This document shows positions 36,340 through 51,340 of a stretch of DNA of 57,422 nt, in pieces. Within the stretch, counting starts at the first letter, position 1. Each line of letters starts with the position of its first letter. This stretch comes from Candidatus Magasanikiibacteriota bacterium (GTDB lineage: Bacteria > Patescibacteriota > Patescibacteriia > Magasanikbacterales > GWA2-37-8), in NCBI GenBank assembly GCA_016189025.1, contig JACPGS010000004.1:1-57422 (forward strand), given 5' to 3'. The position numbers and the translations under genes were made by a program. The notes beneath the pieces were generated by a model that worked only from the letters and a program-made list of their open reading frames with translations, was not told the origin of the DNA and made no database searches.

Positions 36340-37614
36340 CTACACCGCATCGTACTGATGCATGGTGAGCTGCGCTTCAATCTGCTTAGCAGTTTCAATC
36401 GCCACTGCCACCACGATCAAAAGCGAGGTGCCGCCAATGGCGAGCGACTGGGTGCCCATCAGCCCCTGCACCAAAAGCGGCAGAATGGCAATCATCCCCA
36501 AAAACAGCGACCCTACTAAATTCAGACGATTCATGGTGCGCCCCAGATACCTTTCGGTTTCCGGACCGGGGCGAGTGCCGGGAATAAAGCCGCCTTGCTT
36601 TTGCAGATTCTCGGCAATTTTTTGAGGATGAAAAATTACCGCTGTGTAAAAATAGGTGAAAGCCACCACCAGCGAAAAATAGGCGGCGCCGTAAAAAATC
36701 TGATTCTGAAACAGGCGAATGGTGCTGGTGGCTAGATTCACCATCCAACCCGCCTTGGCGCTGACAAAAAACTGGGCGATCATCGGCGGAAACAGAATCA
36801 GGGAAATGGCAAAGATGATGGGAATGACGCCAGCCATGTTCACGCGCAAGGGCAAATGAGAGGAAGCGCCGCCAAACAGGCGGTTGCCGCGCACCTGGCG
36901 GGCGTAAGTTACCGGAATATTGCGCTGGCCTTCGCTGACAAATACCACGCCGACTACCGTGGCAACGGCCGCCGCGGCAAACAAGAGATAAGTAGACAAG
37001 TCCGACGGCGTGTAATTAACATAAGCCGTACGCAACGCGGTAGGCAGCCCGGCGATAATGCCGGCAAAAATCAAAAGCGAGATGCCGTTGCCCACTTTTT
37101 GCTCGGAAATCAGCTCCCCCACCCATACCAAAAACATCGTGCCGGCGGTAACCGTGAGCATAATGGTGAGCATCCGCCCCAGGGTAAGGCTGGTAAGGAT
37201 ATTGTTACCCGATTGCCCCAGCAGCCGGATCATGCCATAGGATTGCAAAAAGGCCAGCGGCACCGTAAGCCAGCGCGTATACAGATTAATGCGCTGCTGG
37301 CCGCTTTCGCCTTCTTTAGAAATCTCTTCCAGCTTGGGCACGATCATGGTTAAAAGCTGCAGAATAATGGAAGCGGTGATGTAAGGGCCGACGCCAAGCA
37401 ACACCACAGAAAAATTCTCCAGGGTGCCGCCGGAAAACAGATTAAGCAAGCCCAGAATCTGGTTGCCGGCTAAATAATTGCGTAGTGCCGTAAGATCCAC
37501 GCCCGGGAGGGGAATATGTGCCACTATCCGGAATACTACCAGCAAGCCGATGACAATCAGCAATTTGCGGCGCAGGTCAGGCGTGTACCAAATTTGTTGC
37601 AGTTTATTCCACAT
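36340..37614 (-). CDS. secY: Protein translocase subunit SecY
   Basis: A 424-residue, ten-helix membrane channel of the Sec translocon. HIPLPGVDL in the first periplasmic plug region, GIGPYI-like LGVGPYITASIILQLL (about 74-89), the NGISLLIFAGI loop after helix 4, and KIAENLQKQGGFIPGTRPG (about 333-351) in the cytosolic C5 loop are characteristic. It ends the spc block of the ribosomal operon; upstream lies an 8-bp minisatellite. Confidence 0.97.
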   Translation of the reverse strand: MWNKLQQIWYTPDLRRKLLIVIGLLVVFRIVAHIPLPGVDLTALRNYLAGNQILGLLNLFSGGTLENFSVVLLGVGPYITASIILQLLTMIVPKLEEISKEGESGQQRINLYTRWLTVPLAFLQSYGMIRLLGQSGNNILTSLTLGRMLTIMLTVTAGTMFLVWVGELISEQKVGNGISLLIFAGIIAGLPTALRTAYVNYTPSDLSTYLLFAAAAVATVVGVVFVSEGQRNIPVTYARQVRGNRLFGGASSHLPLRVNMAGVIPIIFAISLILFPPMIAQFFVSAKAGWMVNLATSTIRLFQNQIFYGAAYFSLVVAFTYFYTAVIFHPQKIAENLQKQGGFIPGTRPGPETERYLGRTMNRLNLVGSLFLGMIAILPLLVQGLMGTQSLAIGGTSLLIVVAVAIETAKQIEAQLTMHQYDAV

Positions 37615-37620
37615 AAATTT

Positions 37621-37808
37621 AGGACGGTAGGATAGTAGGCTGGTAGGCTGGTAGGCTGGTAGGCTGGTAGGCTGGTAGGCTGGTAGGCTGGTAGGCTGGT
37701 AGGATAGTAGGCTGGTAGGCTGGTAGGCTGGTAGGCTGGTAGGCTGGTAGGCTGGTAGGCTGGTAGGCTGGTAGGATAGTAGGCTGGTAGGATAGTAGGA
37801 CGGTAGGA
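37621..37808. repeat. 8-bp minisatellite between secY and rplO
   Basis: About 23 tandem copies of an 8-bp unit GGCTGGTA, with a few GGATAGTA and GGACGGTA variants at both ends and in the middle. It fills almost the whole 208-bp gap, the longest within the ribosomal operon, and must be transcribed with it. Copy number is likely to vary between strains. Confidence 0.97.
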
Positions 37809-37822
37809 GAGGAGGTTTGGGA

Positions 37823-38266
37823 TTAGCTACTCACGGTGCCGCCGGCGGCGCGAATCTGCTCGGCCGCCCCCCGGCTACAGGGAATCCCCGCCACGGTGAG
37901 CGCTTTAGTTAAAATGCCAGTGTTAATAATTTTAACCAAACTAACGCCGGCCGGAATAATCTGCCGCTCCCGTAGCGTCTGACGGCTGACGGTATCGCCG
38001 GCGTTGAATTTTAATTCCAGGATGCGCAGGGTTAATTGCCGGGACGGCGCCTGCTGGCTGCGAAAACCCCGCAGTTGCGGCGTCTGCAATAACAACGGTC
38101 GGAAGCCCAGGCGCCGCAAGCCCCGGCTGCCGCCGGAACGCGCAGTCTGGCCTTTGCCGCCGCGGGTGGAATAAGTGCCGTGGCCCGAGGCATTGCCCCG
38201 GCCCACCCGCTTGGGACGATGGCGCGCCCCGCGGTTCGGCGCCAAAGTATGAGGTTGCAGAATCAT
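37823..38266 (-). CDS. rplO: 50S ribosomal protein L15
   Basis: 147 residues with the glycine-rich N-terminus RVGRGNASGHGTYSTRGGKG that threads into the 23S rRNA, a central RGFRSQQ segment, and the C-terminal fold ending AGGTVSS. It follows rpsE with a 6-bp gap; the rpmD (uL30) gene that usually lies between them is absent. Confidence 0.96.
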   Translation of the reverse strand: MILQPHTLAPNRGARHRPKRVGRGNASGHGTYSTRGGKGQTARSGGSRGLRRLGFRPLLLQTPQLRGFRSQQAPSRQLTLRILELKFNAGDTVSRQTLRERQIIPAGVSLVKIINTGILTKALTVAGIPCSRGAAEQIRAAGGTVSS

Positions 38267-38272
38267 AAAAAT

Positions 38273-38791
38273 TTAGGCTGACGCGATTGCTGCCGAGGAC
38301 TTGGCAGCCGCCCCGGCCGCCCGCTTAAAACTCTTTAAAGCGGCAAAGGTCGCCTTGACAATGGCAATTTTATTTTTGGTGCGGCCGATGATTTTCGCCG
38401 AAACATTGGGCACGCCGGCTAATTCCAGCGCTGCCCGCACCGCGCCGCCGGCAATCAGCCCCGCGCCTTCCGGCGCCGGCTTGAGCATTACCTTGGCCGC
38501 TTTATACTTTTTAATCACCGCATGGGGAATAGTGCCTTTTACTAGCGGCAGAGAAATAATCTGTTTTTTGGCCTGGTGCAGGGCTTTTTCCACGGCTAAT
38601 TGCACGTCAGCGCCCTTGGCCACGCCGTATCCCACCCGCCCCTTGCGGTCGCCGATTAACAAACAAACCCGAAAATTCATCTGCTTGCCGCCCTCGGTAA
38701 CGCGGGTAACGCGGGCTAAATCTAAAATATACTGCTCATACGGCGATTTTTCTTCGCCGCGTCTTTCTCCTCGAAAAAATTGTCGGGGCAT
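38273..38791 (-). CDS. rpsE: 30S ribosomal protein S5
   Basis: 172 residues. The N-terminal dsRBD-like domain is seen in RVTRVTEGGKQMNFRVCLLIGDRKGRVGYG (key positions about 27-57), followed by the S5 C-terminal domain with VMLKPAPEGAGLIAGGAVRAALELAGV. The end is an alanine-rich tail (KRAAGAAAKSSAAIASA), one of several low-complexity tails on ribosomal proteins here. Confidence 0.96.
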   Translation of the reverse strand: MPRQFFRGERRGEEKSPYEQYILDLARVTRVTEGGKQMNFRVCLLIGDRKGRVGYGVAKGADVQLAVEKALHQAKKQIISLPLVKGTIPHAVIKKYKAAKVMLKPAPEGAGLIAGGAVRAALELAGVPNVSAKIIGRTKNKIAIVKATFAALKSFKRAAGAAAKSSAAIASA

Positions 38792-38808
38792 AAATTTTAT
38801 GCTGTCAA

Positions 38809-39183
38809 TTAGAATTGAAGTCCGCCGGCGCGCGCGCCTTCGGCCACCGCCGCTACCCGGCCGTGATAAAGATAGCCGCCGCGGTCAAACACTACCCGGC
38901 GAATTCCCTGGCGTTCCGCTGCCTCGGCCAGCCGCTGACCGACCAGATAAGCGGCTGCCACTTTGGCGGTTTTCCCTGCCACCGGTGCGGCCGCGATCTG
39001 GATACTGCTGGCCGCCGCCAAAGTCCGCCCGGTCGTGTCGTCAATCAGCTGGGCCACGGTGTGGCGCAACCCCCGGAATACCGACAGGCGCGGCTGCACG
39101 GCCGTGCCACGCTGCCTGGCGCGGCCCCGGGCATGTCTAATCGCCCGTCGTTCGCGTTTGGTATTATGATACAATCGCTTCAT
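38809..39183 (-). CDS. rplR: 50S ribosomal protein L18
   Basis: 124 residues; RPRLSVFRG-type strand ([20 protein letters not shown]), then [42 protein letters not shown], the canonical 5S rRNA-binding L18 core. The basic N-terminus is arginine-rich. The gap to rpsE is 17 bp. Confidence 0.96.
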
Positions 39184-39212
39184 AGAATCAAAGAAGAGCT
39201 AACCGGCCTTGG

Positions 39213-39764
39213 CTAAGCGGCCGCGGTTTTTGCCGCGGTCTTGCCGGCTTTGCGCCGGATTACTTCTTCCCCATACTTAATGCCTTTGCCTTTATAAGGC
39301 TCGGGTTTTTTTGTTGCCCGGATTTCCGCTGCCAGCTGCCCTACCGCCTGTTTATCCGGCCCGGCAACGGTAATAATATTCTTTTCTACCTTAAAACTCA
39401 CTCCGGCGCGGGGAGGAATTACTATCGGGTGCGACAAGCCGATTTCCAGGGCCAATTCGCTGCCGCGCAAGGTTGCCTTATACCCCACCCCGCTAATCTC
39501 CAGCTGGCGGCTGAATCCAGCCGTCACGCCGGTAATCATATTGCCGATTAAACTGGAAATAGTGCCCCACAACGCCCGCTGCCGGGTATTGTCGGTTTCT
39601 TTAATCTCTACGGCGAGCGTGCGGTCGCGCTGAATCACCTTCACTCCGGCGGGCAAAGCTAACGACAGCTCCCCTTTCGGGCCTTTAATCAGAAGCTCGG
39701 TATCTTTAATCTCGGCGGAAACGCCCGGCGGTAAGGGATGAATTTTTTTGCCGATTCTGGACAT
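39213..39764 (-). CDS. rplF: 50S ribosomal protein L6
   Basis: 183 residues, starting MSRIGKKIHPLPPGV with two L6 folds and the signature PEPYKGKGIKYGEEVIRRKAGK near residue 155. The C-terminus is extended by an AAKTAAA tail. The gap to rpsH is 3 bp. Confidence 0.97.
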   Translation of the reverse strand: MSRIGKKIHPLPPGVSAEIKDTELLIKGPKGELSLALPAGVKVIQRDRTLAVEIKETDNTRQRALWGTISSLIGNMITGVTAGFSRQLEISGVGYKATLRGSELALEIGLSHPIVIPPRAGVSFKVEKNIITVAGPDKQAVGQLAAEIRATKKPEPYKGKGIKYGEEVIRRKAGKTAAKTAAA

Positions 39765-39767
39765 AAT

Positions 39768-40157
39768 TCAATAAATTTCACACAATACTTCACCGCCCAC
39801 TCCCAGTTCCCGCGCTTCCCGGTCGGTCAATAGCCCGCGCGGCGTAGAAATAATAGCGAGTCCCCGCCCCTGCAACACCGGCCGCAGGGCGGCGCGTTTA
39901 ACATAACGACGGCTACCGGGCTTGCTCACCCGCGCCAGGTGCGTCGCCGCCGGCGCTCCCTCTTCGTACTTAAGCGTCAGCATCAATTCCGGCCGCGGCG
40001 CCCGGGATTCTTCGGCCGCCGCCAAATATCCGGTCCGCACCAGAATATCCGCCAGTCTTTTTTTCAGCCGGGAAAACGGCACCGTCACCTGGTGTTTACG
40101 CGCCCGCTGTCCGTTGCGGATGCGGGTTAAAAAATCAGCAATAGGGTCGGTCATCAT
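39768..40157 (-). CDS. rpsH: 30S ribosomal protein S8
   Basis: 129 residues with the N-terminal DPIADFLTRIRNGQRA and the C-terminal GLAIISTPRGLLTDREARELGVGGEVLCEIY, both diagnostic of S8, which binds helix 21 of 16S rRNA and in E. coli represses the spc operon. Confidence 0.97.
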   Translation of the reverse strand: MMTDPIADFLTRIRNGQRARKHQVTVPFSRLKKRLADILVRTGYLAAAEESRAPRPELMLTLKYEEGAPAATHLARVSKPGSRRYVKRAALRPVLQGRGLAIISTPRGLLTDREARELGVGGEVLCEIY

Positions 40158-40197
40158 AATAATAATTTCGTCAAACGATTGGCGATAAACTTAAATT

Positions 40198-40383
40198 TTA
40201 CCAGCTGCTCTTGCGCACTCCCGGAATCAATCCCTGATTAGCCAATTCCCGGAAACAAATGCGGCAAAGCCGGAATCGCCGTAAAAATCCGCGGCGCCGC
40301 CCGCAGCGGAAACACCGCCGCACTACCCGGGTGGTAAATTTGGGGCGACGCTTGGATTTGGCAATTTGCGCAGTAGTGGCCAT
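40198..40383 (-). CDS. rpsN: 30S ribosomal protein S14, zinc-binding (type Z)
   Basis: 61 residues with four cysteines in two pairs (CFRC and CRIC, about 24-43) that bind zinc, as in the short type Z S14. It lies between rplE and rpsH as usual. Confidence 0.97.
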
Positions 40384-40390
40384 AAATAAA

Positions 40391-40948
40391 TTACTTACTG
40401 GTCAAGCTCTTGGCAAGCGGAAAACCTAAAGCCGCCAGCAGGGCGCGCCCCGCTTCCGGGTCCCGGGCGGTAGTGTGGACAATTACCTGCACGCCGTGTA
40501 ACTTGTCAACATCTTCCATCGTTACTTCCGGGAACGCCGTATGTTCCTTAAACCCTAAAGTATAATTCCCTTGGCCGTCAAAACTGCGGGGCGAGAGTCC
40601 GCGAAAATCGCGCACCCGCGGCAAAGTTACCCGCAGGAGTTTCTCTAAAAAATCATACATCCGGCTCCCCCGCAAGGTGACCATTACCCCGATTTCCTGC
40701 CCTTCCCTAATCTTAAAATTAGAGATGGATTTTTTGGCCCGGGTGCGCACCGCTTTTTGCCCGGTAATTTTCGTCAAAGTTTTTTCCACCTGCTCCAAAA
40801 ACCCAGGTACCTTAATAGTTTTGCCGACGCCGGCGTTCACTACCACCTTCACCACCCGCGGCACCTGCCACCGGTTGCGCAACCGCAGCGTCTGCTGCAG
40901 CGCCGGCACCAGTTCGGTCTGAAATTTTTTACGCAAATTGTTAGGCAT
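40391..40948 (-). CDS. rplE: 50S ribosomal protein L5
   Basis: 185 residues. The core has [12 protein letters not shown] (about 36), [25 protein letters not shown] (about 79-103) and the [23 protein letters not shown] segment (about 118-140). It binds 5S rRNA in the central protuberance. It ends 7 bp before rpsN. Confidence 0.97.
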
Positions 40949-40951
40949 AAA

Positions 40952-41257
40952 TTAGATAGTCTCTTGGCATTTGCGGCACGCCCGCAATTTAACTCCGCCT
41001 TCCCGCCGGTAACCTACCCGGGTGGCTTTGCTGCATTTAGGGCACACCAGCGCCACATTAGCCACCGGCACCGGGGCAAATAATTCCAATACCTGGCCTT
41101 TCTCCGAGCGGCTTTTGGCGCGCAGATGGCGTTTTATTTTATTGGTTCCTTCCACCACCACCCGCCGCTCGGTCGCCAATACCTGAATCACTTTGCCGCT
41201 TTTGCCGCGGTCTTTGCCGGTAGTTATTTTTACCGTATCGCCGGTTTTAATTCGCAT
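40952..41257 (-). CDS. rplX: 50S ribosomal protein L24
   Basis: 101 residues with an N-terminal KOW motif ([24 protein letters not shown]) and a C-terminal zinc-ribbon-like region with CPKC and CRKC pairs, which many L24 proteins retain. Upstream, between it and rplN, lies hairpin C3. Confidence 0.96.
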
Positions 41258-41279
41258 ATGCTTGGAATTTGATTGATTT

Positions 41280-41329
41280 AGAACTTTCGCGTTTGAGCGC
41301 AGTTCTAGGCGCTCAAACGCGAAAGTTCT
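41280..41329. repeat. Compact inverted repeat C3 between rplN and rplX
   Basis: A perfect 21-bp stem (41280-41300 with 41309-41329) and an 8-nt loop AGTTCTAG. The inner arm CGCGTTTGAGCGCAGTTC is related to copies C1 and C2; the outer arm AGAACTTT differs but still pairs. In the operon RNA this would form a very stable hairpin between rplN and rplX. Confidence 0.9.
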
Positions 41330-41333
41330 ATGA

Positions 41334-41705
41334 TCATACTACCTCCGGAGCCAGGGAGATAATCGGCTGGAACCCCCGCGCCCGCAGTTCCCGGGCTACC
41401 GGCCCAAAAATGCGCGTGCCCCGGGGTTCCCGGGTTTTCCGGTCCACAATCACCGCCGCATTATCGTCAAAGCGCAGGTAAGTGCCGTCGGGGCGGCGCG
41501 TTTCTTTGTGGGTGCGCACAATTACCGCGTGCACTACTTCGCTTTTCTTTACCAGGCCGCGCGGCGCCGCTTCTTTTACTACCGCCGTCACCATGTCGCC
41601 CAACCGGGCATAGCGCTTGCGATAGCCGTCCAGCACGCGAATACACTGGAGTTTTTTGGCTCCGGTGTTATCGGCTACTACTAACATGGTGCGGTGTTGA
41701 ATCAT
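41334..41705 (-). CDS. rplN: 50S ribosomal protein L14
   Basis: 123 residues, [25 protein letters not shown] at the start, [34 protein letters not shown] in the middle: the conserved L14 barrel. It stops with TGA, evidence that TGA is not reassigned here. Confidence 0.97.
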
Positions 41706-41737
41706 ATCCTAAAGTATTAAGCGCGCGGGGCAGGGCG

Positions 41738-42010
41738 TTAGGCAAGAGGCGTTAAAACTTTCACTAACCGCCAGCGTTTAGTTTTGGAGAGCGGACGACA
41801 CTCGGCAAAAGTAACTAGCTGGCCCGCTTTGGCTTCGCCGCGCTCGTCGTGCACCTGGTACTTGCGGCTCACCCGGTATTTTTTATGATATTTAGGATGC
41901 AGACGAAAACGGTCCACCCGCACGGTAATCGTTTTGGGGGCCTTAGCGCTGATTACGGCGCCCTGGAAAGTACGATGAGGCGCCAAAGAAGCGGCGGCGG
42001 TATTAGTCAT
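41738..42010 (-). CDS. rpsQ: 30S ribosomal protein S17
   Basis: 90 residues with the OB fold of S17: FQGAVISAKAPKTITVRVDRFRLHPKYHKKYRVSRKYQVHDE (key residues KTITV about 26-30), and GQLVTFAECRPLSKTKRWRL near the end. Confidence 0.96.
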   Translation of the reverse strand: MTNTAAASLAPHRTFQGAVISAKAPKTITVRVDRFRLHPKYHKKYRVSRKYQVHDERGEAKAGQLVTFAECRPLSKTKRWRLVKVLTPLA

Positions 42011-42026
42011 ACTGTTTTGCTAATGT

Positions 42027-42224
42027 CTAACCAGTAGTTGACTGGCGCTCTTTAAGAATAGTTAAACTGCGGGCAATGTCTTTACGCAATTGGCGTAGCC
42101 GGTGCGCCTGCTTAAAAGCTCCCGTGCGCGAGCGCAGGCGCAGCTGATGCAGTTCCTGCCGCGCCGCCGTTAACGCCTGATTAAGCTCGGCAGTGCTCTG
42201 ATTGCGCAATTCCTTAATTGACAT
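42027..42224 (-). CDS. rpmC: 50S ribosomal protein L29
   Basis: 65 residues, two-helix L29: MSIKELRNQSTAELNQAL at the start and HRLRQLRKDIARSLTILKER in the second helix. It lies between rplP and rpsQ in the standard order. Confidence 0.95.
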   Translation of the reverse strand: MSIKELRNQSTAELNQALTAARQELHQLRLRSRTGAFKQAHRLRQLRKDIARSLTILKERQSTTG

Positions 42225-42247
42225 AAATCGTTGATAATAAAGGGGCG

Positions 42248-42664
42248 TTAGGCGGCAGATTCCACTAAACGCGTCGGTACGCCGAATTTATGCCCGGCTA
42301 ATAATAGCGCCTCCCGCGCCTGGGGGCCGGCCACGCCTACCATCTCCAATAAAACTGTCCCGGGCTTTACCACCGCTACATAATGATCCGGCGCTCCTTT
42401 GCCGCCCCCCATGGGAATTTCGTTGCCTTTTTTGGTAACCGGTTTATCGGGGAACACCCGAATCCAGATTTTGCCGCCGCGCCGGACATAGCGGGTAAGC
42501 ACGCGGCGCGCCGCTTCCAGCTGGCGGCTGGTTACCCAGGCGTGGCCCAGCGCCTTCAGGCCATGATTACCGAAAGCCAGACGCCCGGCGCGGCTGGCAA
42601 TCCCCTTCCCGCGCCGCCGCCCTTTGTGCCATTTGCGGTGTTGTACTTTTTTCGGTAATAACAT
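42248..42664 (-). CDS. rplP: 50S ribosomal protein L16
   Basis: 138 residues with [15 protein letters not shown] near the N-terminus, [14 protein letters not shown] and [27 protein letters not shown] (about 88-113). It lines the A-site region of the 50S. The start codon is only 2 bp from the end of MITE A3, so no Shine-Dalgarno of its own remains. Confidence 0.97.
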
Positions 42665-42666
42665 AT

Positions 42667-42751
42667 TGAGACTAGAGAAGAACGCCGTCTTTATTTCCCG
42701 CTCTGCCGCGCCCTAATGCTAACTTGCTATTCCTATTCTTCTTTAGTCTCA
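42667..42751 (+). mobile_element. MITE family A, short copy A3 (85 bp)
   Basis: Ends TGAGACTAGAGAAGAAC and ATTCTTCTTTAGTCTCA with the 3-bp duplication TAT on both sides. The interior is deleted compared with A1 and A2 but keeps CTGCCGC..CCCTAATGCTAACT from their right halves. It exactly fills the gap between the rpsC stop and the rplP start. Confidence 0.85.
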
Positions 42752-42756
42752 TATTG

Positions 42757-43452
42757 TTAATTCGCCCGCCGGCGGCGGCTGGGAGCCGCGGCCCGGGCCT
42801 CAAACCGGTCGGAGCGCGCAAACGATTCGCCCCGATAAACCCAGACTTTAATGCCGATTTTGCCGTATACGGTGTGCGCTTCGGCAAAAGCATAATCTAC
42901 GTTGCTGCGCATGGTAATGAGCGACATTTTGCCGGCCGCGAGCTTCTCCCGCCGGGCAATTTCCACGCCGTTCAGCCGCCCGGACATTTTTATCTTCACC
43001 CCCAGGGCGCCGCCGGACATCACCCGTTCAATCGTATGCTTCATCACGCGGCGGAACGGCATCCGTTTCTCAATATCCAAGGCAGCCTGGGCCGCGACAA
43101 TCGCCGCCGACAGCTGGGGATGCTCCACTGCCTGGATATTCAGGGACACCCGCTGCTTAAAACGCATCATTTTGCGCTCAATCGATTTGCGCAGCAATTC
43201 TATCCCCTGCCCGCCGCGGCCGATTACTACTCCGGGCTTGCCTACCAACAAGGTGAGCTTCACTTCTTTGGGGGAGCGCTCAATGCTGATGCCGTCTAAT
43301 CCGGCGTCTTTTAATTTGGCGGTTAGCCAATCGCGAATCGCTACCTCCTGCTCCAACAGAGCGGCCAGTTGATCTTTGCGCGCAAACCAGCGCGAATCCC
43401 ACAGGTGGAGCGCGGGGGTGCGGTAAATGACCGGATGAACTTTGTGTCCCAT
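42757..43452 (-). CDS. rpsC: 30S ribosomal protein S3
   Basis: 231 residues from the ATG at 43452 (MGHKVHPVIYRTP); the in-frame extension to 43491 is a translated REP-like arm. The KH domain has VIGRGGQGIELL (about 80-91), followed by the S3 C-terminal domain with SGRLNGVEIARREK and TVYGKIGIKVWVYRGE. The tail is arginine/alanine-rich. Confidence 0.97.
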   Translation of the reverse strand: MGHKVHPVIYRTPALHLWDSRWFARKDQLAALLEQEVAIRDWLTAKLKDAGLDGISIERSPKEVKLTLLVGKPGVVIGRGGQGIELLRKSIERKMMRFKQRVSLNIQAVEHPQLSAAIVAAQAALDIEKRMPFRRVMKHTIERVMSGGALGVKIKMSGRLNGVEIARREKLAAGKMSLITMRSNVDYAFAEAHTVYGKIGIKVWVYRGESFARSDRFEARAAAPSRRRRAN

Positions 43453-43464
43453 AAAGATGAAATT

Positions 43465-43491
43465 GTCATTCCCGTGTAAACGGGAATCCAC
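43465..43491. repeat. REP-like hairpin between rplV and rpsC
   Basis: GTCATTCCCGTGTAAACGGGAATCCAC contains an 8-bp stem (TTCCCGT/ACGGGAA) and is one arm of the REP-like units seen inside family B copies. It abuts the rplV stop codon. Confidence 0.75.
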
Positions 43492-43850
43492 TATGATTGC
43501 GGCGCGGCCGTTCTGCGGCGCGGCGCCAAAACCAGCTTGACGTGGCTGGTGCGCTCGCGGATCGGAGTCGCCCGGCCGTGCGCCCGCGGGGTCCAGCGCT
43601 TTAATACCGGCCCCCCGTCTACGGTAATGGCGCGCACTACCAGGGTATCCGGATCCAGCTTAAAATTGTGCTGCGCATTGGCGACCGCCGAATTTAACAG
43701 CTTCAACAGGGGACGCGCCGCCCGTTTATTCAGGTGGGTCAAGGCCGCGATGGCCCGCGCCACGGTTTTGCCGCGGATTAAATCGGCCACCAGCCGCACC
43801 TTGCGGGGGCTTTGCCGGTAATAGCGCAACTGAGCGTCAACTAAAGTCAT
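43491..43850 (-). CDS. rplV: 50S ribosomal protein L22
   Basis: 119 residues from the ATG at 43850; the longer frame overlaps rpsS and is not L22-like. LRYYRQSPRKVRLVADLIRGKTVARA (about 7-32) and the exit-tunnel hairpin end RAHGRATPIRERTSHVKLVL are typical. Confidence 0.96.
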   Translation of the reverse strand: MTLVDAQLRYYRQSPRKVRLVADLIRGKTVARAIAALTHLNKRAARPLLKLLNSAVANAQHNFKLDPDTLVVRAITVDGGPVLKRWTPRAHGRATPIRERTSHVKLVLAPRRRTAAPQS

Positions 43851-43863
43851 AATACCAACTAAC

Positions 43864-44196
43864 TTACTTCTTGGAGCCGGCCGCCGGAGCCGGGGTGGCA
43901 GCCGCGGCGGCGGCTTTGGCCTCCTGTTCTTTCTGCATCTTGCCGCCGTGGCGGATAAATTTGCGGGTAGGCGAAAATTCACCCAGCCGGTGGCCTACCA
44001 TATTTTCTTCCACCAAAACGTCAATAAAATTCTTGCCGTTATGCACCGCAAAAGTTATTCCCACCATTTCCGGGGTAATGGTGCAGGCGCGCGACCAGGT
44101 TTTAATCGGCGCGCGCTTGCCGGTTGCTTTCTGCGCCCGCACTTTTTTCAGCACGCGCTCGTCTAGGTAAGGGCCTTTTTTAAGACTGCGAGACAT
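43864..44196 (-). CDS. rpsS: 30S ribosomal protein S19
   Basis: 110 residues with [46 protein letters not shown] and [19 protein letters not shown]. The last 23 residues form an Ala/Glu/Lys/Pro-rich tail not present in most S19 proteins. Confidence 0.96.
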
Positions 44197-44206
44197 ATCG
44201 GCTTAA

Positions 44207-45043
44207 TTAACCTTTTCTAGGTTTAATGATGAATTTATTGCTCCACTTGTTGCGCCGGCGCCCCAATACCCCGCGCGCCTTTTTGCCGTAAACCGTCATC
44301 GGGCCGCGCCGCTGGCCGATGGGGCTGTGCCCCTCGCCGCCGCCGTGCGGATGGTCAACCGGATTCATATTTTTCCCCTTCACGGTGGGGCGGATGCCGC
44401 GATGACGCACCCGCCCGGCCTTGCCCCAGCGAATCAAGCGGTGGTCCGGATTGCTTAAAGTTCCCAAAGAAGCGGCGCAGGCTTTGGCGACCTGGCGAAT
44501 TTCGCCGGAAGGGAGTTTCAGCTGGGCATATTCGCCCTCTACTCCCAATAATTCCGCGGCCAGCCCAGCCCCGCGCGCCAACACTCCGCCGCCGCCGGGA
44601 GTAAGTTCAATATTATGCAGGGGAATCCCGGGGGGAATAAATTCCAGAGGCATCCGATTGCCGATTTTCGCTTCGGTTGCCCCCCGCGCTGAACTTACCG
44701 TGGCGCCGGGCGCCAGACTATCCGGGGCAAGAATATACGACTTAACGCCGTCGGCATATTGAATCAGGGCAATGCGGGCGCTGCGGTAAGGGTCGTATTC
44801 AATCGCCTGGACTGTCGCCGGTACATCATAACGCTGTTGCTTAAAATCTACCAGCCGATACAAGCGTTTGGCGCCGCCGCCGCGGTGCCGCACCGTAATG
44901 CGGCCCTGGTTATTGCGGCCGGAGCGCGGTTGCAGACGCACTATCAGCGATTTCTCCGGCTCCTGCTTGGTAATGTCAAGCCGGGCGTCGGCGCTGGCTA
45001 GCCGTCGGCCGCTGGTGGTGGGGCGGTATTGCTTCAAAGGCAT
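44207..45043 (-). CDS. rplB: 50S ribosomal protein L2
   Basis: 278 residues from the ATG at 45043 (MPLKQYRPTTSGRR). The SH3/OB core and the peptidyl-transferase-proximal VDHPHGGGEGHSPIGQRRGPMTVYGKKARG segment (about 228-257) are intact. The start is 1 bp after the rplW stop. Confidence 0.97.
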   Translation of the reverse strand: MPLKQYRPTTSGRRLASADARLDITKQEPEKSLIVRLQPRSGRNNQGRITVRHRGGGAKRLYRLVDFKQQRYDVPATVQAIEYDPYRSARIALIQYADGVKSYILAPDSLAPGATVSSARGATEAKIGNRMPLEFIPPGIPLHNIELTPGGGGVLARGAGLAAELLGVEGEYAQLKLPSGEIRQVAKACAASLGTLSNPDHRLIRWGKAGRVRHRGIRPTVKGKNMNPVDHPHGGGEGHSPIGQRRGPMTVYGKKARGVLGRRRNKWSNKFIIKPRKG

Positions 45044-45044
45044 A

Positions 45045-45503
45045 TTATACTCCTTCGTGCAGGGCAAGCGTGACGCCGGAGGGCAAAATAACAATGGCTT
45101 TTTTGGTATCGCGCCGGGTGCCGGCCATCCGGCCGAACCGGACTGCCTTCCCTAACTGATGCATTACCCGCACTGCCCGGGGACGCACGCCATACAGCTC
45201 TTCCACAGCGCGGGTAATTTCACTCTTGGTGGCACTCCGGCTGACCAAAAAAGTATACTGGCCGCGACTCTCGCCCCGGGCCGATTTTTCGGTTACCAGG
45301 GGTCGCACTATTACTTCCGTGGTGCGCCGGCTGACGGCACGGGGGGCAGCCGCGGCTTGATGCTCCGCCGGAGGCAGTGCGGGCGCCGACGGCGCGGGCG
45401 CTGCTTGCCGCGGCGCCTGCTCTTTTTTGCCGGACGCCGGCGCTGCCTGGCTCTGCAGCTGGGTTCGGGCTTTCTTTTTAAACCACCGATCAAGTAATCC
45501 CAT
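45045..45503 (-). CDS. rplW: 50S ribosomal protein L23 with N-terminal extension
   Basis: 152 residues. The L23 domain starts near residue 62 (VIVRPLVTEKSARGESRGQYTFLVSRSATKSEITRAVEELYGV). Before it are an amphipathic basic helix (MGLLDRWFKKK) and about 45 residues of Ala/Pro/Gln-rich sequence. L23 sits at the tunnel exit where SRP and trigger factor bind, so the extension could reach a membrane or factor; this is inference. Confidence 0.95.
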   Translation of the reverse strand: MGLLDRWFKKKARTQLQSQAAPASGKKEQAPRQAAPAPSAPALPPAEHQAAAAPRAVSRRTTEVIVRPLVTEKSARGESRGQYTFLVSRSATKSEITRAVEELYGVRPRAVRVMHQLGKAVRFGRMAGTRRDTKKAIVILPSGVTLALHEGV

Positions 45504-45544
45504 ACTTCTTGCTGATTACTGAATCTGCTGATTGCTTATGATAA

Positions 45545-46177
45545 TTACTTCTTCTTCAACAACGTCTCTAACTTCCTAATTCCTTCCACCGTAGTGATCA
45601 CTGCCTGCCGGTTCACAATATCCTTTACCGACACATCTTCGGCCCGTTGTACGCTAACCTGGCGCAAATTCCGCCCCATCCGCATTACGCCCAGGTGCCG
45701 GCCCGGGGTAAGAATTAACCATGTCCGCGGCGCCTGCGGCAGGGCCCCGAGCAAGCTGACCAATAATTTGGTCTTGGGTTCGGCAAAAGAAAACTGCTGC
45801 AGCACGTACAAGGCTTTTTCTTTAACGCGGGCCGACAGCGCCATGCGGGTCGCCAGGCGCCGCTCCGTACGGTTAATCTTCAAGTGATAATGGCGCACGT
45901 TGCGCGGGCCAAAAGTGACGCCGCCGCCTTTCCAGATCGGGGAACGGATGGAACCGTGCCGGGCGCGTCCGGTGCCTTTTTGGCGCCAGGGTTTGCGTCC
46001 GCCGCCCCGCACCTCGCCGCGCGTTTTGGTGTGCGCCCAGGGCTCGCGCTCGCGCGCCTGCTGGGCTACCAGCACCGAATGCAGCACCGCCGGCTTTACC
46101 CGGACCTTAAAAATCTCATCGGCCGCTTCCATTTCTTCTACCGGCTGACCGGTTAAATTATACACGGGTAACTTCAT
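45545..46177 (-). CDS. rplD: 50S ribosomal protein L4
   Basis: 210 residues with the tunnel loop WAHTKTRGEVRGGGRKPWRQKGTGRARHGSIRSPIWKGGGVTFGP (about 47-91) and the C-terminal Rossmann-like domain. L4 represses the S10 operon in E. coli by binding its leader. The ATG overlaps the rplC stop (46174-46177). Confidence 0.97.
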   Translation of the reverse strand: MKLPVYNLTGQPVEEMEAADEIFKVRVKPAVLHSVLVAQQAREREPWAHTKTRGEVRGGGRKPWRQKGTGRARHGSIRSPIWKGGGVTFGPRNVRHYHLKINRTERRLATRMALSARVKEKALYVLQQFSFAEPKTKLLVSLLGALPQAPRTWLILTPGRHLGVMRMGRNLRQVSVQRAEDVSVKDIVNRQAVITTVEGIRKLETLLKKK

Positions 46178-46944
46178 ACGGTTGATACGGGAGCGGCTTC
46201 GGCCGGGGCCGGAGACTCGGCGGGCGCGGAGGACTTAACTTCTACTCCGCCCGACTCGGTAACCGGCGCCGCTGCCGCGGAAACTGATTCAGAGGCGGCC
46301 GCGGCGGGAATGGCGGATTGTGTTTTCAGCTCTCCGGCGGCATAAATTTCCAACAGCCCCTCGCGCGCGCCCGGCAAGGCCCCTTTGATAGATAATTCAT
46401 TGATTTCCGGGTGAATTTCCACAATTTCTAAATTTTTAACGGTTACCTGGTCGCCGCCCAGCCGGCCGGCCATGCGGCGGCCTTTAAACACCCGCTGCAC
46501 CCCGCCGGCGCCGATGCTCCCCGGCGCGCGCAAATTGTCTTTGTGCCCGTGGCTGGCCGGGCCGCCGGCAAAATGATGGCGCTTAACCACACCGGCAAAA
46601 CCTTTGCCCTTGGATACGCCGGTAACCGTTACCCGGTCGCCAACGGCAAACGTTTCCACGGTGATAAAATCGCCGCGCTTAATTGCTACCCCTGATTCCA
46701 GGGGGAAATCGCGCAAATGGCGCACTGCCGGTAATCCCTTAAGATGCCCGGCCTGGGGTTTAGCGAGGCGGAAGGCGGGAATGGCTCCCCAGCCGATCTG
46801 CACCGCCGCCGCGCTCTTTTGGCCGGCGGCTTTTACCTGCACCACCGGGCACGGCCCTGCCTGCACCCGCGTTACCGGCACCACTTCGCTAAGGCCCCGG
46901 AATACCTGCGTCATCCCTAATTTTTTGCCCAGAATAAACTTCAT
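46174..46944 (-). CDS. rplC: 50S ribosomal protein L3 with C-terminal extension
   Basis: 256 residues from the ATG at 46944 (MKFILGKKLGMTQVF). The signature SKGKGFAGVVKRHHFAGGPASHGHKDNLRAPGSIGAG (core about 113-149) is clear. The last 45 or so residues are Ala/Pro/Ser/Glu-rich and outside the L3 fold. A strong terminator hairpin ends 13 bp before the start codon. Confidence 0.97.
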   Translation of the reverse strand: MKFILGKKLGMTQVFRGLSEVVPVTRVQAGPCPVVQVKAAGQKSAAAVQIGWGAIPAFRLAKPQAGHLKGLPAVRHLRDFPLESGVAIKRGDFITVETFAVGDRVTVTGVSKGKGFAGVVKRHHFAGGPASHGHKDNLRAPGSIGAGGVQRVFKGRRMAGRLGGDQVTVKNLEIVEIHPEINELSIKGALPGAREGLLEIYAAGELKTQSAIPAAAASESVSAAAAPVTESGGVEVKSSAPAESPAPAEAAPVSTV

Positions 46945-46957
46945 ACCCAGTGTTAAC

Positions 46958-47009
46958 AAAAAACTAGAAGCGCTTACCGGGGTTAACTCACCCCCGCAAA
47001 CGCTTCTAG
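46958..47009 (-). terminator. Terminator-like hairpin just before rplC, candidate attenuator
   Basis: CTAGAAGCG (47009-47001) pairs with CGCTTCTAG (46972-46964), with an inner GGGG/CCCC stem, followed on the minus strand by six T. It lies 13 bp before the rplC ATG, too close for a promoter in between. Upstream hairpins CTCGCCGTTGGCGCGAG and TCCCGTTTTATCGGGA (about 47010-47055) complete a structured leader. Confidence 0.85.
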
Positions 47010-47176
47010 CCTTTATTCCCGATAAAACGGGATGGACCTCGCGCCAACGGCGAGATAATTAAAGGCTTGAGTTGATAGACAATAATTTTTCAATTCTTTC
47101 GGCTATCGCTTTTCGCCTCAATGGTTTCCTAGGGACCTTATTGAGAAAAAGCAATTAGCGGCAGAAATTTTTGACT

Positions 47177-47611: not shown

Positions 47612-47736
47612 ATTTTTTACGTAATCTGTTTCCGCCTCTATTCAAGAACCGCTTCCGCGTTTATCCGCGTTGCTGCCCGCCTCGACTCGCTGAACGAGTT
47701 TCGGCAAGGCAGATCCGCGTTTATCCGCTTCTACAT

Positions 47737-50722: not shown

Positions 50723-51340
50723 TTATATTTTATACTGCCGCACCGTTTTCTCCAAGAATTTTTGAATCGTTCCCCGCTCAACCTCGCCGCGCAAAAAATC
50801 TATTTTCTGCGTTGGCACGTCTGCCAACGAAACTAATTGGCCCAAAAATAAACGGTCACTAAAATCATGCTTAAACTTTTTCTTCGCCACCCGTATTACC
50901 TCGGCTAGCTGTACATGTTTCTCTTTCAGCATAAAGTACCAATCCACATAATCTTTATACGCCAACCGTTTACCGATAGCAAACGCTTTCATGGCGGCTA
51001 GTTCCCGTAGGCTGACCAGCGGCACCCGATGGTAATGTGATACTGCTTCTACTATCGGATACTCGAACCGAAAAAAAGTACACTTGACATTATCAATGAG
51101 CAAATTCAACTGTTCCGGGGCCCGATAAGTTACGGTGACGGAGGCTCTGGCAAATATCCGTTTTACTCGCCGCAGGAGCGTCGGCGGCAAGGCTTGAGCA
51201 GAAAATAAATCAAAATCAACTGAGATGCGGTGCCCGATATGCAAAGCCAGGGCGGTACCGCCGACTAAATAAAAATTTTTAAACCGAGCCAAACGAGGAA
51301 ACAGCGCCGCCGCCCGGGGCAGCAGAGCTTCAGCGTGCAT
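50723..51340 (-). CDS. AbiEii/AbiGii-family nucleotidyltransferase
   Basis: 205 residues with the type IV toxin/abortive infection nucleotidyltransferase signature YLVGGTALALHIGHRISVDFDLFS (residues about 24-47), including GG and the D-x-D pair. ELAAMKAFAIGKRLAYKDYVDWYFML (about 112-137) is the second conserved part with the K and D residues. Such proteins transfer nucleotides to tRNA or other targets and defend against phage in AbiE. It overlaps the upstream DUF6922-like gene by 11 bp. Confidence 0.87.
   Translation of the reverse strand: MHAEALLPRAAALFPRLARFKNFYLVGGTALALHIGHRISVDFDLFSAQALPPTLLRRVKRIFARASVTVTYRAPEQLNLLIDNVKCTFFRFEYPIVEAVSHYHRVPLVSLRELAAMKAFAIGKRLAYKDYVDWYFMLKEKHVQLAEVIRVAKKKFKHDFSDRLFLGQLVSLADVPTQKIDFLRGEVERGTIQKFLEKTVRQYKI

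Follow-up and report, generated by a model that had tools for sequence, protein, structure and literature searches.

The window, that is, the whole analysed stretch of 57,422 nt from a Candidatus Magasanikiibacteriota genome, carries on its minus strand tuf (49479-48286), rpsJ (48243-47737), an orphan frame called orfX here (47611-47177), a noncoding stretch and rplC (46174-46944), in that order. The gene for ribosomal protein L3, rplC (Pfam PF00297), displayed the conserved start MKFILGKK and precedes the rest of a presumed operon, the 18 further r-protein genes rplD to rplO plus secY (36340-46177). Its products were identified by Pfam as L3, L4, L23, L2, S19, L22, S3, L16, L29, S17, L14, L24, L5, S14, S8, L6, L18, S5 and L15, followed by SecY, so that all 19 ribosomal genes and secY reported in an earlier note on this DNA were confirmed. 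Gene rpsJ (S10, PF00338) adjoins tuf, and this order was the same in relatives. Upstream of tuf, a strong extended -10 promoter (TTGCCA-17-TATAAT with TG, 49651-49623, minus strand) is, from its sequence, the probable driver of tuf-rpsJ. Another minus-strand frame (50723-51340) resembled by eye an AbiEii-type nucleotidyltransferase; the promoter accompanying it at 51662-51634 reads as a perfect TTGACA-17-TATAAT.

Directly before rplC lies an intrinsic terminator (46958-47009, minus strand). Its arms CTAGAAGCG (47009-47001) and CGCTTCTAG (46972-46964) form a perfect 9-bp stem followed by TTTTTT (46963-46958), which leaves 13 nt to the rplC ATG (46944); exact sequence and fold both bore out the earlier description of this hairpin. 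With the inward extension UUUGC/GUAAG plus CGGGG/CCCCG, the stem reached 14 pairs. A perfect 9-bp stem with T6 occurred only once in the window, both strands considered, against 0.025 expected from dinucleotide shuffles. The 181 nt of positions 46930-47110 (minus strand) folded at -68.6 kcal/mol (z = -6.3), a value equalled by none of 200 shuffles. The two small hairpins previously noticed 5' of the terminator were present as well, namely TCTCGCCGTTGGCGCGAGG at 47055-47037 and TCCCGTTTTATCGGGA at 47032-47017 (minus strand). Both were found to be enclosed by an outer stem absent from the earlier note, AGCCTTTA/TAAAGGCT (47067-47060 with 47015-47008). The resulting unit, Hp2 (47008-47067, minus strand; outer stem AGCCUUUA/UAAAGGCU), corresponds to an AGCC...GGCU hairpin in most relatives, and its last two bases also belong to the terminator stem.

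A longer conserved leader ends, on its 3' side, with this terminator. The coordinates first given for the element (46945-47100) fall short of its full span, as conservation extends to ~47170. The additional part, domain A (47088-47170, minus strand), is a long stem (P1-P4) with a conserved symmetric internal loop. Its core (47117-47145) consists, in the window, of P3 (CUCAAU/AUUGAG), the loop AAGG/AACC (consensus AAGA/AAAC) and P4 (UCC/GGA). In relatives the centre reads [P3]-AAGA-U[P4]...[P4]A-AAAC-[P3], with an invariant AAGAU/AAAAC internal loop. The helix flanking this loop varied freely (UAAAU/AUUUA, CAGAU/AUCUG, GAUAGA/UCUAUC); in the loop itself, AAG.U and AA.C were nearly unchanged. 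Among 28 sequences, 86 % of cells were paired and covariation amounted to 0.555, against 0.20 after shuffling and no more than 0.17 after sliding. Among 65 sequences, 12 of the 14 pairs were changed on both sides with a score of 0.61 against 0.22 in shuffles, in an alignment that was fitted to the structure and is therefore biased toward it. Judged from these sequence comparisons, domain A is a genuine RNA structure, and the pattern is that of a recognised loop within a helix.

Covariance model R1 displayed a single match in the window's own genome. Because the window sequence had been part of the training sets of R1 and R2, a holdout model (R3) was built without it; in the 57-kb window, R3 produced a single match (E of only 0.019), exactly at the leader (47088-47170, minus strand). 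A search of ten loci against the covariance models of Rfam 15, including riboswitches, T-box and known r-protein leaders, returned only chance-level matches with E up to 5.

The comparison covered Magasanikbacteria-like Patescibacteria, in which rplC was found in 56 of 57 relatives and about 80 loci were read in the stretch preceding rplC. The usual order within the rpsJ-rplC gap was promoter, domain A, AGGAG, an A/U-rich linker with the AGCC...GGCU hairpin overlapping the terminator, the terminator (typically GGCTAGAAG...CTTCTAGTTTTTT) and rplC. In 54 loci a consensus promoter (TTGACA-17-TANNNT) preceded the domain A core, mostly by 31-77 nt, so transcription must pass the terminator. The distance from terminator to rplC ATG ranged from 8 to ~170 nt; it was usually below 100 nt and in many cases only 8-20 nt. 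Both observations agree with the earlier proposal that no room is left for a promoter and that read-through is obligatory. Relatives lacking the hairpin, which had been named as the case that would speak against an attenuator, were looked for, and a terminator-like hairpin before rplC turned out to be nearly universal in the ~80 loci. Outside the class, rpsJ-rplC gaps were mostly 0-150 nt long (~60 loci) and only two of these ~60 loci displayed a terminator just before rplC; in a few more, the gap was long and a hairpin lay far upstream.

This layout bears on two alternative explanations. The hairpin, which sits behind rpsJ, could be the plain terminator of a tuf-rpsJ operon, with the rplC promoter downstream of it; given the conserved promoter upstream of the leader and the 8-20 nt left before the ATG, this is scarcely plausible. 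The leader might also be a stand-alone gene for a trans-acting small RNA that lies before rplC by chance, as an RNA of ~200-300 nt is neatly delimited by promoter and terminator. This appears very improbable, since the position before rplC was kept across families and in some other orders, even where the leader had no promoter of its own in the gap (families f2 and f6 and genome G123), and since several genomes left only 8-20 nt from terminator to ATG.

Of 65 leaders, 58 contained an AGGAG/GGAGG-like site 17-30 nt beyond the loop on its 3' side, where 12.6 were expected. A properly spaced AUG was almost absent from these 65 leaders, and reading frames starting from AUU or UUG were not conserved among four close relatives (L139, L147, L148 and L151). 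A leader peptide was consequently rejected. The start-less Shine-Dalgarno-like site may serve as a landing place for 30S subunits, or its sequence alone may be what is recognised. These same features favour an alternative in which the attenuator responds to something other than an r-protein, either ribosomes docking on this site through 30S binding or a small molecule. It is nevertheless considered unlikely: the window copy has no AGGAG, no known riboswitch was matched, and the domain A locus was always tied to the r-protein operon and never to metabolic genes.

By direct inspection, domain A was identified in 65 of 75 rplC loci, about once per genome and between rpsJ and rplC. Under strict filters, 52 of the 86 genomes of the order each gave a single R1 match. 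Within the class but beyond the order, R2 matched few genomes; in all seven such loci that were read (G123, G128, G158, G186, G228, G303 and G371) domain A preceded rplC. Elsewhere in the phylum R2 gave no credible match. Two hits were taken as false positives: an R2 match from the rest of the phylum (G639), whose locus contained neither rpsJ nor rplC, and an R1 match (G052:C11) that was not near rplC. Five loci from other Patescibacteria (L034, L062, L069, L070 and L075; Uhrbacteria, Falkowbacteria, Parcubacteria or unnamed) showed gaps of ~200-270 nt in which a terminator preceded rplC. They displayed loops such as AAAG/UAAC or the same strands in reversed order (UAAC...GAAAG), which could represent permuted or distantly related versions of domain A.

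Domain A was absent from family f7 and a few further genomes, all of which kept the terminator; it is thus not essential everywhere. In f7 (L030, L160, L162, L164, L165 and L166) the terminator hairpin was longer and had an internal loop of its own (ACG-UCC...GGA-UACG), which possibly replaced the recognition site; a G-rich hairpin (AUUUCU..GGGGGG..AGAAAU) preceded it. The persistence of the terminator where domain A was lost would also suit a partial terminator of fixed, unregulated strength that keeps S10/spc expression below that of tuf-rpsJ, domain A then having a role in RNA stability or processing; so would the failure to find an alternative fold (see below). An invariant internal loop within covarying helices in 65 loci, however, implies recognition by something, and we give such a fixed terminator only a small chance.

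The window copy is a divergent member of the family with a probably displaced promoter. Its rpsJ-rplC gap measured 792 nt, against mostly 280-450 nt in the family, because of the presence of orfX. This frame of 144 aa occurred only in the window genome, had no Pfam or NCBIfam match and no homologue in 82 relatives, and was rejected as a regulator on these grounds. It is likely an insertion or a decayed gene, and probably an insertion that displaced the promoter. Between rpsJ and orfX (47641-47735), repeated GCGGATAAACGCGGATC-type units beside a GCTGAACGAGTTTCGGCAAGGC stretch look like a small repeat element. No consensus promoter was found at the usual distance from the window leader, and the best candidate (ATGATA-17-TATAAT, 47448-47420) falls inside orfX. 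Besides lacking AGGAG, the window leader displayed AAGG/AACC in place of AAGA/AAAC, the AACC strand being shared with one locus of another order (L142). The window leader may be transcribed from the tuf promoter through rpsJ; the same must hold for families f2 and f6, in whose gaps no promoter occurs.

Conserved alternative pairings had been suggested as a check on the attenuator. When partners of both terminator arms were computed in 51 leaders, no consistent one emerged for either arm beyond the 2-nt overlap with Hp2. Wherever scored, the terminator state was ~5-22 kcal/mol better than the alternative. A two-state antiterminator is therefore not supported.

Mimicry of an r-protein binding site on rRNA was likewise not apparent. 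A pattern search for the domain A loop in 23S rRNA returned only chance-like matches, and nothing was found in 16S rRNA. In the L3 region, 23S domain VI (GGAUAAACGCUGAAAGCAUCU) showed only a weak sequence likeness to the leader (AGAUAAGAUC..GAAAACAUCU); this candidate was discarded because the two differ in topology and the AUCU of the leader varies. The best rRNA model match was located in 23S domain I (GAAACAUCUCAG, in L186, E = 1.2); it is presumably inconsistent with the rRNA structure and was rejected as a mimic of domain A. During these searches, matches to the 23S model spanned 3.6-4.5 kb in 23S rRNA genes at four loci (L188, L189, L192 and L193), and from these spans 23S rRNA insertions appear to be present in some relatives and in the window genome.

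For the largest r-protein operon, E. coli offers the best-known case of control. The L4-dependent S10 leader of this species is confined to some gamma-proteobacteria; once bound upstream, L4 stabilises a pause at the terminator hairpin that depends on NusA, without any need for an antiterminator (review PMC10931766). The Patescibacteria leader resembles it in its folded RNA, with hairpins ahead of a Rho-independent terminator, in facing the same r-protein gene set and in lacking a two-state antiterminator. In contrast, the E. coli leader precedes rpsJ, whereas the one described here follows rpsJ and precedes rplC, mostly has a promoter of its own and matches no Rfam family. It shares the terminator in the leader with the E. 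coli type and not the position, rpsJ being upstream and adjoining tuf in the window as in relatives.

The B. subtilis L20 leader acts through terminator/antiterminator alternatives. The same is true of the B. subtilis L10 (rplJ) leader (PMC10931766). Both are leaders of r-protein operons ending in an intrinsic terminator, like the present one, which differs from them in displaying no conserved antiterminator. The rpsL-leader and rimP-leader are also conserved terminators before translation-machinery operons, the latter with sequence conservation in the terminator stem, but they belong to other operons (Naville and Gautheret 2010, PMC2965389); the main text of that study makes no mention of rplC or rpsJ. 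No published r-protein leader from Patescibacteria was found in the open-licence literature. While attenuation of r-protein operons is known, what is new is the leader RNA itself, absent from Rfam 15, together with its own promoter between rpsJ and rplC in most relatives.

Two features of r-protein leaders were found here, namely a position 5' of an r-protein operon within the transcribed leader and a structure with compensatory changes. That the leader RNA is conserved, covaries and has no Rfam counterpart supports the suggestion, already made from the window sequence, of a new ribosomal-protein leader, with a putative r-protein ligand. We assign a probability of about 0.6 to the reading that it is a new cis-acting leader RNA of the ribosomal-protein type attenuating transcription of rplC to secY (19 r-protein genes plus secY); that termination is regulated is our inference. 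In most relatives, polymerase starts at the strong sigma-70-type promoter recognised by sequence just after rpsJ, and the nascent RNA, as covariation and folding show, forms domain A, then Hp2, then the strong terminator before rplC. Free r-protein from the operon itself, L4 or L3 being the likeliest candidates, would bind the AAGAU/AAAAC loop of domain A whenever it exceeded the available rRNA, and would favour pausing and release at the terminator; once the protein was consumed by ribosome assembly, polymerase would read through. The mode would be that of an RNA-protein complex acting on an always-forming terminator, as for L4 and NusA in E. coli, rather than that of a two-state antiterminator. 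The choice of L4, or of L3 as the first product, is a guess by analogy with the E. coli L4 attenuator.

Rather doubtful, by comparison, is an extended version in which the leader acts as a two-input sensor, domain A reporting free r-protein and the start-less Shine-Dalgarno docking free 30S subunits. If true, read-through into the 19 r-protein genes would be set directly by the number of unused ribosomal subunits. The conserved ribosome-binding-like site that starts no gene constitutes a new puzzle, and the leader, with its covariance model and invariant loop, offers a defined RNA testable against ~20 candidate proteins.

Patescibacteria are a vast, mostly uncultured group of tiny organisms whose gene regulation has been little studied. 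Their cells probably ration the genes for building ribosomes by premature ending of the message, with an RNA other than that of E. coli. This would represent an independent leader RNA in Patescibacteria, as opposed to the L4 leader, a late invention of some gamma-proteobacteria.
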